Of a DNA stretch of 64,000 bases, positions 2,618 through 19,258 are shown piece after piece; the stretch's first letter is position 1; every line of letters begins with the position of its first letter. The position numbers were made by a program, and so were the translations under genes. The notes below the pieces were generated by a model. That model saw only the letters and a list, made by a program, of their open reading frames with translations. It searched no databases and was not told the DNA's origin. The DNA comes from Rouxiella sp. WC2420 (GTDB lineage Bacteria; Pseudomonadota; Gammaproteobacteria; Enterobacterales; Enterobacteriaceae): NCBI RefSeq assembly GCF_041200025.1, contig NZ_CP165628.1, positions 248,001 through 312,000 of the forward strand. Reading direction: 5' to 3'.

Positions 2618-3313
2618 ATGATCTACTTACGCAAAGCACAAGATCGCGGCCATGCCAATCACGGTTGGCTCGACAGCTGGCATACATTCTCTTTTGCCGA
2701 TTATTACGATCCGAACTTTATGGGTTTCTCCGCGTTGCGGGTAATTAATGAAGATGTGATCGACGGCGGGCAGGGCTTCGGCACGCATCCGCATAAAGAC
2801 ATGGAAATTCTGACTTACGTGCTGTCCGGTACTGTTGAGCATAAAGACAGCATGGGCAACAAAGAGCAGATTCAGGCGGGCGAGTTTCAGATTATGAGCG
2901 CCGGTACCGGTGTGAAGCACTCTGAATACAACGGCAACCGCGATCGTGCGCTGCATCTTTATCAGATATGGATTATCCCGGAAACCAAAGGGCTGGAGCC
3001 GCGCTACGATCAGCGCATGTTTGACGCGCCTCAGGGCCGCCAACTCGTGCTGTCGCCGGATGCACGCGACGGTTCGCTGAAAGTGTTTCAGGACATGGAG
3101 CTTTCCCGCTGGGCCTTCAAAGCAGGTGAAGACGGTGAATATGCCATCGCCGAGAATCGTCAGGTATGGATTCAGGTGGTTAAAGGCAGTCTGACTGTCA
3201 ATGGTCAGGCGATGACGACCAGCGACGCGGTGGCTGTGTGGGAAGAATCCGCGCTGGCGCTGCATGCCGACGAAGACAGCGAAATTCTGCTGTTTGATCT
3301 GCCGCCGGTTTAA
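2618..3313 (+). CDS. yhhW: Quercetin 2,3-dioxygenase, pirin family
   Basis: A 231-residue bicupin protein, the same length as E. coli YhhW. The N-terminal pirin cupin holds the metal ligands in the expected places: His57 and His59 in GTHPHKDMEIL, and His101 and Glu103 in GVKHSEYN. The E. coli enzyme has quercetinase activity in vitro, but the physiological substrate is unknown. ATG 2618 is preferred over the upstream TTG at 2612 because it matches the family start MIYLRKA and has aggaga seven bases ahead. It is transcribed towards gntR with 222 bases between, as in E. coli, and is probably its own unit. Confidence 0.93.
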   Translation: MIYLRKAQDRGHANHGWLDSWHTFSFADYYDPNFMGFSALRVINEDVIDGGQGFGTHPHKDMEILTYVLSGTVEHKDSMGNKEQIQAGEFQIMSAGTGVKHSEYNGNRDRALHLYQIWIIPETKGLEPRYDQRMFDAPQGRQLVLSPDARDGSLKVFQDMELSRWAFKAGEDGEYAIAENRQVWIQVVKGSLTVNGQAMTTSDAVAVWEESALALHADEDSEILLFDLPPV

Positions 3314-16531: not shown

Positions 16532-17374
16532 ATGCAAAGCATTCTTTCTTCGTGGTTTGTGCAAGGAATGGTCAAGGCGACCAGCGACATGTGGCTGAAG
16601 GGCTGGGATGAGCGCAATGGTGGCAATATCAGCCTGAGATTACTGGAAGAGGAAGTCAGCCCTTTTACTGCTGATTTCGTCGCCGAGCCGCGTCATATCG
16701 AGCTGACTCAGCCAGCGCCGCTGCTGGCAAACTGCTGGTTTTTGGTCACGGGTTCTGGCAAGTTTTTCCGCAACGTGCAGCTTGACCCTGCCGATAGCCT
16801 GGTGCTGTTACAGGTCAGCGAAGATGGCGCGTCTTATAAAATTCACTGGGGGCTGGTGAACGGTGGCGTGCCGACCTCCGAGCTGGCGTCGCATTTTCAG
16901 TCGCACAGCGTGCGCAAGCAGCTAACCCACGGTTCCGACCGGGTGATCATGCACTGTCATGCGACTAACTTTATGGCGCTAAGTTATGTGTTGGAGCTCG
17001 ATGCGGCGAGCTTTACCCGTCAACTTTGGGAAGGCAGTACCGAGTGTCTGGTGGTGTTCCCGGACGGCGTTGGTATCGTGCCGTGGATGGTGCCTGGCAC
17101 CGACGGCATCGGCGAAAAAACCGCTGAACAGATGAAGTCGCACAGCATCGTGCTGTGGCCTTTCCACGGTATTTTTGGCGCCGGGCCGACGCTGGATGAG
17201 ACATTTGGACTGATCGACACCGCTGAAAAATCCTCGGAAGTCCTGGTGAAAGTGATCTCTATGGGCGGCATGAAGCAGACTATCAGCACTCAGGAGCTTA
17301 TCGCCCTCGGCAAACGCTTTGGTGTTAATCCGTGGCAGGAGGCGCTGCACCTGGACAAACGCAATGTTGCGTAA
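16532..17374 (+). CDS. rhaD: Rhamnulose-1-phosphate aldolase RhaD
   Basis: A 280-residue class II aldolase splitting L-rhamnulose-1-phosphate into dihydroxyacetone phosphate and L-lactaldehyde. The zinc ligands His141, His143 (MHCHATN) and His212 (PFHGIFG) and the catalytic Glu117 ([11 protein letters not shown]) fall at the E. coli numbers. It is a few residues longer than E. coli RhaD (274) at the C-terminus. It starts nine bases after rhaA and its 3' end overlaps rhaM by 11 bases. The lactaldehyde product is the substrate of the nearby aldA. Confidence 0.95.
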
Positions 17375-17678
17375 AGCGTTTGTGATGCAGGTGCATCCGC
17401 ACGCCCATGAGGAATATCAGCGGCGACACTCACCTGTCTGGCCTGAGCTGGAGCAGACGCTTAAGGCTCACGGCGCTCACCACTACAGTATCTTTCTGGA
17501 TCAGCAGAGAAATCTGCTGTTCGCCGTGGTGGAGATTGAATCGCAGGAGCGCTGGGACGCAGTGGCAAAAACCGCGGTTTGCCAGCGCTGGTGGCAGTCA
17601 ATGTCGGCGCTGATGCCATCCAATGCGGACAACAGCCCGGTGAGCCAAGAACTGAAAAGCGTGTTCTATCTGCAATAG
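17364..17678 (+). CDS. rhaM: L-rhamnose mutarotase RhaM
   Basis: A 104-residue protein of the RhaM family, the same length as in E. coli. It interconverts alpha and beta anomers of L-rhamnose so that the isomerase gets its preferred form. Tyr18 and His22, the catalytic pair, are in [21 protein letters not shown] and [13 protein letters not shown] are conserved at the end. ATG 17364 is chosen because it gives the family start [10 protein letters not shown], and it overlaps rhaD by 11 bases in another frame. Last gene of rhaBADM. A duplicated piece of yhgN begins 25 bases after its stop. Confidence 0.93.
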
Positions 17679-17703
17679 GATGGCGAAGCAGCAAGCTCAA
17701 ACT

Positions 17704-17798
17704 CTAAATCTTCAAATATGCTCGCACGCCATCAAGGAACATCTGGGTTGAGAGCATCACCAGCACTAATCCCATCAAACGCTCCAGCGCATCGACGC
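17704..17798 (-). repeat. 95-bp direct repeat, copy 1 (orphan 3' end of yhgN)
   Basis: This stretch reads the same, base for base, as 18665-18759, which is the last 31 codons of yhgN including its stop. In this copy there is no yhgN upstream of it on the minus strand: beyond 17798 the sequence changes to the toxin-antitoxin promoter. The two copies bracket the toxin-antitoxin cassette in the same orientation, 961 bases apart. Confidence 0.93.
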
Positions 17799-17826
17799 TT
17801 TGAAATTAATGTTGTACAAAATTTGA

Positions 17827-17867
17827 CTGACATTATATTGACTACGCTCTATAATATAGACTGTAGT
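17827..17867 (+). promoter_or_regulatory. Toxin-antitoxin promoter with overlapping operator
   Basis: A -35 CTGACA (17827-17832) and a perfect -10 TATAAT (17850-17855) are separated by 17 bases. Centred on the -10 is an imperfect 27-bp palindrome (17841-17867): outer arms ACTAC and GTAGT, inner arms TCTATA and TATAGA. That is where the antitoxin or the complex would bind to repress its own operon. Confidence 0.72.
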
Positions 17868-17913
17868 TAATAAGTGAGGCGACGGACGTTTCTCTCTTAA
17901 AGGACTAACACGG

Positions 17914-18269
17914 ATGTGGGAAGTTGAAACGACAGAGCTATTTGATACCTGGTTTGTTGAACAAGAAGATGAGCTACAAGTGAGGCTCCTTGCTGGTTTT
18001 AACCTGATTGAACAAGTTGGGCCTACGCTCGCCAGACCCTATGCTGACATCCTAAAAGGCTCCAGGCATGCCAATATGAAAGAGCTTCGCGTGCAATATG
18101 ATGGGCACCCGATACGTGCTTTTTTTGCCTTTGATCCGATACGTAATGCGGTTGTTTTTTGTGCTGGGGATAAAAAAGGTGCAAACGAGCAAAATTTTAT
18201 ACAGAGCTGATTCGAACTGCAGATGCTGAATTTGATCGTCATCTGAAAAAATTGAATTTGGAGAAGTAA
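17914..18269 (+). pseudogene. RelE/HigB-type toxin, frameshifted near its C-terminus
   Basis: The open frame from ATG 17914 (aaagga nine bases upstream) gives 98 residues matching the phage-derived Gp49/HigB-like RelE toxins: MWEVETTELFDTWF, GPTLARPYADILKGSRHANMKELRV with QYDGHPIRAFFAFDP, then FCAGDKKGANEQ. After that it ends with NFIQS and a stop at 18208-18210. The family continues with a KRFY-type motif and a helical tail. That tail (FYTELIRTADAEFDRHLKKL...) is present in the next frame, ending at 18269, three bases before the antitoxin. One missing A in the caaaatttt stretch (18190-18198) explains the break. The protein may have lost its last helix and its activity, or the base may be a sequencing or assembly error. 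An intact gene would give about 118 residues. Confidence 0.8.
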
Positions 18270-18271
18270 CT

Positions 18272-18571
18272 ATGGCGACATTAAAAGAACTTATGGCCCA
18301 GCGTACACCTGAAAGTCAGGAACGTATCAAAGCTATGGCGAATGAAATGCGTCTTGAAACTCGGCTCTATGAACTGCGTGAACAGCTGAATTTGTCTCAG
18401 AAAGAAGTCGCTGAGGCAATGGGCATCAAGCAGCCCTCTGTGGTGGCTATTGAACAGCGCGGAAGTGAGATGAAAATTGACACTTTGAGGCGTTATGTCG
18501 AGGCATTGGGCGGAAAACTTAGCATTGACGTTGAGCTGCCGGGTGGAAAACATTTTGGTTTTACGGTTTAA
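18272..18571 (+). CDS. XRE-family antitoxin (HigA-like)
   Basis: A 99-residue DNA-binding protein with a Cro/C1 helix-turn-helix at about residues 37-70 (LNLSQKEVAEAMGIKQPSVV). The N-terminal acidic/basic helix has ERIKAMANEM and the C-terminus has LSIDVELPGG. This is the usual partner of HigB/Gp49-type toxins: it blocks the toxin and represses the operon. It starts two bases after the restored toxin frame, with ggagaag upstream. It is open and apparently complete, so the cassette keeps an intact antitoxin beside a damaged toxin. Confidence 0.9.
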   Translation: MATLKELMAQRTPESQERIKAMANEMRLETRLYELREQLNLSQKEVAEAMGIKQPSVVAIEQRGSEMKIDTLRRYVEALGGKLSIDVELPGGKHFGFTV

Positions 18572-18631
18572 ATCACCGATAACTTTTTAAATCCTCGTTT
18601 TAATAAATTTTCATTCTGCAGGTTTAAAAAC

Positions 18632-18665
18632 GGGTTGCTCCCCATATCTGCGGGGAGCAAAACCC
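18632..18665 (-). terminator. Hairpin between the antitoxin and yhgN
   Basis: TTGCTCCCC (18635-18643) pairs with GGGGAGCAA (18652-18660), and GGG/CCC extends the base. On the minus strand it is followed by a short T run (GTTTTT), so it terminates yhgN. It may also stop plus-strand transcripts from the antitoxin. The orphan yhgN end at 17704 lacks this hairpin. Confidence 0.72.
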
Positions 18666-18759
18666 TAAATCTTCAAATATGCTCGCACGCCATCAAGGAA
18701 CATCTGGGTTGAGAGCATCACCAGCACTAATCCCATCAAACGCTCCAGCGCATCGACGC
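18665..18759 (-). repeat. 95-bp direct repeat, copy 2 (3' end of the intact yhgN)
   Basis: Identical to 17704-17798. This copy is continuous with the rest of yhgN. The repeat starts exactly at the yhgN stop codon (18665-18667 reading tag on the minus strand) and ends within the gene. Confidence 0.93.
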
Positions 18760-19258
18760 CGCGATCGCCCAACAGCCGCAGAAACACGTTCGACAGCAGT
18801 AAAATACACATCGACAGACCCCAGGCAATTAACAGCGCCAGCGTCAGGTGGCCGATTTGATTTGGATACTGATGCGACAGCAGCATCAACGAAGCCAGTA
18901 TCGATGGGCCAGCGACCAGCGGGATAGCCAGCGGTACTAAAAACGGCTCTTCACCCGCCGGTAAGCCGCTGCTGTTATTGTCATGCGAAGGAAAAATCAT
19001 CTTGATGGCAATCAGAAACAGGATGATCCCGCCGGAAATTGACACCGTTTCAGTCCGCAAATTCAGGAATGACAAGATCTTCTCACCGGCAAACAGAAAG
19101 ATCAGCATCAGCAGCAGGGCGATCAGCATCTCGCGGATCAACACTACGCGACGGCGTTTAGGATCCAGATGCTTTAGCACTGACATAAAGATCGGCAGGT
19201 TGCCCAGCGGATCCATAATCAAAAATAATAAAACTGTTGCCGAGATCATTTCAGTCAT
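18665..19258 (-). CDS. yhgN: MarC-family inner-membrane protein YhgN
   Basis: A 197-residue membrane protein with six predicted helices, the same length as E. coli YhgN. Conserved MarC blocks are LIMDPLGNLPIFMSVLKHLD, VSISGGIILFLIAIKMIFP and EEPFLVPLAIPLVAGPSILA. The family was once linked to multiple antibiotic resistance but its function is unknown. The start at 19258 follows AAGGAACG and gives the family start; a longer frame to 19324 lacks support. It is the usual neighbour of asd. Its last 31 codons are duplicated at 17704-17798. Confidence 0.92.
   Translation of the reverse strand: MTEMISATVLLFLIMDPLGNLPIFMSVLKHLDPKRRRVVLIREMLIALLLMLIFLFAGEKILSFLNLRTETVSISGGIILFLIAIKMIFPSHDNNSSGLPAGEEPFLVPLAIPLVAGPSILASLMLLSHQYPNQIGHLTLALLIAWGLSMCILLLSNVFLRLLGDRGVDALERLMGLVLVMLSTQMFLDGVRAYLKI

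Follow-up and report, generated by a model that had tools for sequence, protein, structure and literature searches.

By what route did a toxin-antitoxin cassette enter the interval between the convergent genes rhaM and yhgN, and why does the 3′ end of yhgN stand on both of its sides? The locus was analyzed within a 64,000-nucleotide stretch of Rouxiella sp. WC2420 DNA (the window). A first-pass annotation had read 95-bp perfect repeats here, one the natural end of yhgN and the other an orphan beside rhaM, and these readings were confirmed. The core (17704-17798 and 18665-18759) was identical at 95/95 positions, and extension 5 bases leftward added one mismatch, giving a direct repeat with 99/100 identities, a start-to-start spacing of 961 and 866 bp (17799-18664) separating the copies. 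Compared flank against flank using blastn, the copies matched at E 2e-37, which together with the repeat length excludes a chance origin. Copy 2 consists of the last 95 bp of yhgN and 5 bp past its stop codon, on the minus strand, while copy 1 lies 21 bp past the rhaM stop codon. Coordinates and profile matches are collected in Table 1.

Table 1. Features of the rhaM-yhgN interval in the window, and the terminators that bracket HicAB elsewhere in the same genome.
Feature	Position	Strand	Evidence
rhaM, left neighbour, convergent with yhgN	17364..17678	+	Pfam rhaM E 5.1e-30
Repeat copy 1, orphan yhgN 3′ end, no adjoining hairpin	17699..17798	.	99/100 to copy 2
Cassette left end, promoter-like site 17827-17855 inside	17799..17913	+	11/12 promoter matches
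Toxin gene, Gp49 family, frame broken near 3′ end	17914..18210	+	PF05973 E 1.3e-16
Toxin C-terminal coding piece, detached, other frame	18195..18269	+	translation of piece alone
Antitoxin gene, HTH_3/HTH_37, intact, conserved	18272..18571	+	PF01381 E 2.9e-11; PF13744 E 1.4e-10
Hairpin, intrinsic-terminator-like site of yhgN	18635..18660	-	terminator scan and fold
Repeat copy 2, native yhgN 3′ end and 5 bases past stop codon	18660..18759	.	sequence comparison
yhgN, MarC family	18665..19258	-	MarC PF01914 E 1.9e-60
HicAB-bracketing terminators	L343 (G000:C1:908900-914100), 2309-2344 and 3097-3132		

The hairpin that had been counted as part of the cassette is present, but reads as a terminator-like site of yhgN, on the minus strand beside copy 2. 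The minus-strand fold of 18620-18668 had a free energy of -22.4 kcal/mol (z -4.28), and no stable fold was found in the copy 1 flank (17676-17706); in the window the hairpin adjoins copy 2 only. By eye, the hairpin did not look like the attC site of an integron gene cassette. A promoter belonging to the cassette had also been proposed, and a sigma-70-like site with 11/12 matches is indeed there, but the scan counted 1 such site against a shuffle mean of 1.8, so by this count the promoter does not exceed chance.

Perfect 95-bp repeats can arise in assembly, and an assembly or annotation artefact would undo the view of a mobile cassette. The same structure, with both copies and both junctions, was found in Serratia sp. 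M24T3 (G004 = L011), which belongs to the same species, and the two assemblies carry strain-specific differences inside it. Because two different assemblies have these junctions in common, an artefact is extremely improbable. Within each strain the copies were identical (95/95); between strains 2 sites differed, both differences being common to the two copies and both, from the reading frame, appearing synonymous in yhgN. The copies evolve in concert, whether through gene conversion or through loss followed by regain, so their identity tells nothing of their age. A single differing base beside the core (17703 / 18664) is swapped between the strains, T/C in the window and C/T in M24T3.

The genes between the repeats were assigned using Pfam to a Gp49-family toxin (PF05973) followed by an HTH antitoxin (PF01381 and PF13744); with NCBIfam profiles the toxin had no match and the antitoxin had weak matches only, below cut-offs. 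Judged by sequence, the two would form a Gp49/HigB-like type II pair in which the toxin is not intact. The break in the toxin frame had been missed in the first-pass annotation. The toxin ORF is 98 aa long, where 164 relatives have a median of 116 aa; its frame is broken, and its C-terminal part is encoded in a different frame. The toxin gene of M24T3 lacks about 0.2 kb, which indicates that the two strains lost the toxin by different routes. Between the window and M24T3 the antitoxin gene differed at 1/300 bases and the remaining cassette at 14/349 (p 0.0013), with a difference of 0.5-1.0% in the flanking genes; the antitoxin therefore evolves as a kept gene and the toxin as a pseudogene.

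Empty sites with a single copy of the repeat, which the annotation had advised looking for in close relatives, were found. Four other genomes of the genus (G001, G002, G003, G005) have one yhgN end and no cassette, and since rhaM is the neighbour of yhgN in G002 and G005, the empty site is direct in these two. A hairpin or other spacer adjoins yhgN in each of the four; by eye, the 21 bp beside copy 1 partly resemble the G003/G005 spacer, and the hairpin beside copy 2 partly resembles that of G002. A duplicated end with a single-copy empty site is a mark of an integrative element at a gene 3′ end. A mobile toxin-antitoxin unit attaching at a coding-gene 3′ end had been thought new; attachment sites of this type are already known, SGI1 integrating at the trmE 3′ end (PMC8409611). 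The mobile-cassette view holds as far as a discrete insertion with an empty site is concerned, but the data do not support an intact or currently mobile cassette, with the toxin broken in both strains.

A second mark of an integrative element is a recombinase, its own or that of a helper. As had been noted, no integrase accompanies the cassette: the window's genome has nine PF00589 matches, none within about 200 kb of the cassette, the nearest about 213 kb off, and a helper might act in trans. Recombination by a helper enzyme was one of two routes originally proposed, the other being homologous recombination with a strain carrying the cassette downstream of yhgN; the helper would be a tyrosine recombinase or XerCD moving an active cassette in trans. 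Such movement would be in keeping with direct repeats that have single-copy empty sites and with the nine PF00589 matches elsewhere in the genome, and the dif modules of Acinetobacter plasmids are a known integrase-less format (PMC6449649). However, no dif-like site was found at the cassette, the best having 12 mismatches to E. coli dif, equal to the shuffle mean of 12; the repeats vary from locus to locus in both sequence and length, which a fixed recombination core would not; and, apart from M24T3, the cassette was not found in the genomes and plasmid records searched. We regard movement by a helper as very unlikely. A XerCD/dif module as such was rejected, as 28-bp XerC/XerD border sites gave no match above shuffles. 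Variable repeat length, together with the lack of a PF00589 match within about 200 kb, argues against one fixed att core.

For the cassette search, 295 family genomes were used, G004 lying outside that draw. Some DNA match to the cassette was obtained in 61/295, the best place beyond the window's own genome having 67% identity over 517/866 bases, and none of 328 plasmid records covered 80% of the cassette; M24T3 is its one further known occurrence. Nor was yhgN supported as a common integrase attachment site. When 392 genomes were searched at the protein level with the 34-aa yhgN end, a query that misses short ends such as that of G197, 276 matched and four of these had two matches; the second match is known as an orphan only in the window's genome (G000), the other three being G106, G112 and G287.

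A module was scored as bracketed when a direct repeat (E≤1e-4) had a copy ≤300 bp away on either side. Bracketing repeats were found at 11/164 related modules and at 1/395 ORFs taken from those loci and from the window (p 9.7e-6), and at E≤0.01 the counts were 16/164 and 6/395; a locus's own upstream and downstream flanks matched in 11/164 pairs, against 99/26732 cross pairs of different loci. The 164 loci are distinct, with L015, L022 and L023 (no toxin match) and duplicates left out, and the module end was estimated at L218, L219 and L230, which had no antitoxin match. The M24T3 repeat was missed by the 14-mer scan, the bracketing scans and the 164-locus count because its assigned toxin start lies inside copy 1. 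HicAB, an unrelated module type, was bracketed in 3/70 loci (p 0.012 vs ORFs), in a set with 4/70 loci for which no partner ORF was found. Acetyltransferase genes gave 0/48 (2/50 skipped), and as the difference from the 14/234 of the modules is not significant (p 0.14), module specificity is not established. None of seven K-12 toxin-antitoxin pairs (0/7) had a repeat at E≤0.01.

Four of the 11 matches had prompted the test; minus these, 7/160 remained (p 0.0009), and minus those four and the three loci that lie in repeat arrays of one genus (L082, L083, L085), 4/157 (p 0.025). Also among the 11, the repeat at L097 involves the end of an apparent transposase gene, L228 is ambiguous, and L181 and L208 have a common terminator type (13 and 12 cross-pair matches). 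L170, with a 74-bp, 80% repeat whose copies lie 908 bp before and 180 bp after the module, falls outside the 300-bp rule and was not counted. Larger repeats sought as exact 14-mers within 6 kb at 24 loci gave short chance matches only, and when E. coli was taken as a within-species test, queries from two other genomes had no usable chromosomal match. Most modules are without such a repeat (153/164 related, 67/70 HicAB); bracketing is a minority pattern, enriched compared with ordinary genes. A module with a repeat copy ≤300 bp away on either side, and with a single copy in relatives that lack the cassette, was found at the window and at four further loci, and where single-copy relatives are available the bracketing repeat is 25-100 bp long.

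The fullest comparison of filled and empty sites was obtained in the genus of G278, where a module lies between an efflux gene and another gene in 8/20 genomes. Sixteen loci were compared. Among the eight with the module, six have two copies of the terminator repeat (78 bp in G278), one has one and one has none; all eight without it (8/8) have one copy, and in five genomes lacking the module the two flanks of the filled site coincide over 43-53 bp, equal to one copy. On a tree of the neighbouring gene, module presence needs four changes, at least two of them forced, and is not clearly clustered (58/500 shuffles as low). G341, which is module-free, is nested among module-bearing genomes, a position consistent with exact loss of the module or with its replacement by an empty allele. 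The hairpin in this genus behaves as if it were a recombination border. Across L255-L270, one and the same terminator is followed by at least four different sequences, whether or not the module is present.

Within the genus of the window, the LysR-uvrA interval of G001 has a hairpin on both sides of its module, and again beyond a 130-bp repeated element, where one hairpin was seen by eye in G002, G003 and G005. The ~130-bp element (L160 2972-3105; G001:C23) has about 40 copies in G001 and lies at the uvrA end with a hairpin copy on either side. In the window's genome the same interval (L278 809-2380; G000:C1 near 4878600-4880200) holds a 523-aa ORF without flanking repeats, which by eye looks like a phage-tail-type protein. 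Near 911432 of G000:C1, HicAB has a 36-bp terminator on either side, the two being identical; G004, the sister strain, is without HicAB and has one such terminator, and one terminator place was seen in each of four other genomes of the genus. In the gene preceding this HicAB, the final codons are not those of the sister strain.

In G240, the module is bracketed by 57 bp of a terminator and tRNA-Asn end, of which G394 and G366 have one copy, and G307 has a related module in an island, with an integrase gene (PF00589 E 2e-16) about 1.8 kb away beside tRNA-Asn. An integrase-island remnant is thus a real alternative at the tRNA-Asn site and a strong rival to the reading preferred below. Applied to the window, it would mean that a larger integrative element once occupied the yhgN 3′ end and that its integrase and other genes were deleted, leaving the toxin-antitoxin pair between attL and attR. 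The topology is right for this, with the intact gene on one side and the orphan end on the far side, and the G307 integrase lies at the very gene whose end is included in the G240 repeat. On the other hand, the G240 repeat runs about 45 bp past the tRNA end into the terminator, several of the other repeats consist of a terminator and include no gene or tRNA end, and deletion would have to leave only the pair and its edges, which are tight in several loci. An orphan yhgN end, moreover, is known from the window's genome alone among the 276 that matched, the three further two-match genomes included in that number. For the window, we judge a remnant unlikely.

Other modules were found at yhgN as well. 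In G197, which belongs to a different genus, a two-gene module in the yhgN-gntU interval has a duplicated yhgN end around it (52 bp, 94%); the module has a weak Fic/Doc match (E 1.8e-4, just under the Pfam cut-off), and next to it HicAB is bracketed by a 42-bp, 81% hairpin repeat. The order (L322, G197:C41:94000-99200) runs yhgN end, Fic-like module, hairpin, yhgN end, HicAB, hairpin, gntU, which looks like a pair of interval alleles placed end to end. It is the best case for a two-step origin in which the module entered without duplication and a donor allele carrying it was later joined in tandem to the resident allele through two crossovers, one homologous and the other illegitimate; the altered last codons before HicAB in the window's genome would also suit such joining. 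Loci with a single module and a clean single-copy empty site need one event only, however, and we consider two-step joining rather improbable as the general origin of the repeats.

In E. coli, a single place covers ≥80% of the yhgN-gntU query in 3745/5374 matching genomes; four of the other 1629/5374 were examined, and in all four a DprA-like gene and a RecQ-like gene lie at yhgN-gntU. The pair is PsyrTA-like (L364, 3696-6994; E. coli matches H52, H54, H55, H63), and in one E. coli strain, DETEC-P881, it is named PsyrA and PsyrT by PADLOC. In an O157:H7 strain the helicase gene of the pair is annotated as broken. No flanking repeat was found around the insertion in DETEC-P881, the one strain tested.

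The preferred explanation, to which we give roughly even credence, is that the cassette entered between convergent rhaM and yhgN through an event in which the terminal ~100 bp of yhgN were duplicated, and that this mode of entry is recurrent. Insertion would have duplicated the yhgN end, one copy still ending yhgN with its terminator and the other left as an orphan beside rhaM; elsewhere in enterobacterial chromosomes, minimal modules of ~0.8-1.2 kb are likewise found bracketed by a duplicated gene end or terminator of variable length. After insertion the copies would be plain homology, so that recombination would keep them identical and could delete the cassette precisely. Addiction would probably select against such deletion until the toxin decays, as it did in the window. 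The chemistry of insertion might be template switching during repair or replication, at a break or a stalled hairpin, or else a single crossover of a circle carrying the gene end. Repeats that differ in sequence and length, the lack of a dif-like site and the ~213 kb to the nearest PF00589 match do not suggest a fixed-core recombinase. Against the preferred explanation are the insertions without flanking repeat at yhgN-gntU in DETEC-P881 and at uvrA-LysR in the window's genome, the many modules that lack a repeat, the hairpin next to a single copy in the window, the integrase island of G307 and the two module-bearing loci in the genus of G278 that do not have two copies. The original proposal of a mobile cassette is partly supported: the locus holds a discrete insertion with a single-copy empty site and a dead toxin, with no sign of a dedicated attachment system.

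More broadly, and more tentatively, toxin-antitoxin modules of different families may be minimal recombinase-less units that enter at terminators and gene 3′ ends by host-driven insertion, duplicating 25-100 bp; addiction would retain them, gene conversion would homogenise the copies, and the yhgN 3′ end would be used by different modules in several genera. The window shows a late stage, with the toxin lost twice over in two strains, the antitoxin retained and the repeats still identical. A review (PMC7167474) states that toxin-antitoxin insertion sites are not random and calls the way of integration unelucidated, a matter on which gene-end and terminator duplications around modules of different families bear; in the excerpts of the literature searched, no description of terminator duplication around toxin-antitoxin modules was found. 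Long duplications with single-copy empty sites are a concrete signature, countable across genomes and rebuildable in a laboratory strain. Recurrence around modules of different families lifts this cassette above the ordinary and offers a clue to how such cassettes enter chromosomes.

Among known systems, chromosomal type II modules such as mazEF in relA-mazG and ccd in folA-apaH are likewise small, placed between conserved genes and absent in some relatives, but the window site is bracketed by a long gene-end duplication and the seven K-12 pairs are not (E≤0.01). SGI1-type elements also leave the target gene intact, duplicate its end and place the orphan on the far side; the cassette differs from them in lacking a recombinase, in its size of <1 kb and in a repeat length that varies between loci. 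Coding-gene 3′ ends are attachment sites for further integrative elements besides SGI1. Cis-mobilizable elements are deletion products of ICEs, att-flanked and without an integrase. The cassette resembles these in its att-type flanking repeats and lack of an integrase, but no integrase-bearing relative at yhgN was found in the 392-genome yhgN-end search, which misses short ends. The dif (pdif) modules of Acinetobacter plasmids are small and integrase-less, some with toxin-antitoxin genes, as here, but are bounded by 28-bp Xer sites, none of which was seen at the cassette. The PsyrTA pair of E. coli, although without a flanking repeat in the DETEC-P881 strain, is likewise a toxin-antitoxin-type system and has the same landing place downstream of yhgN.
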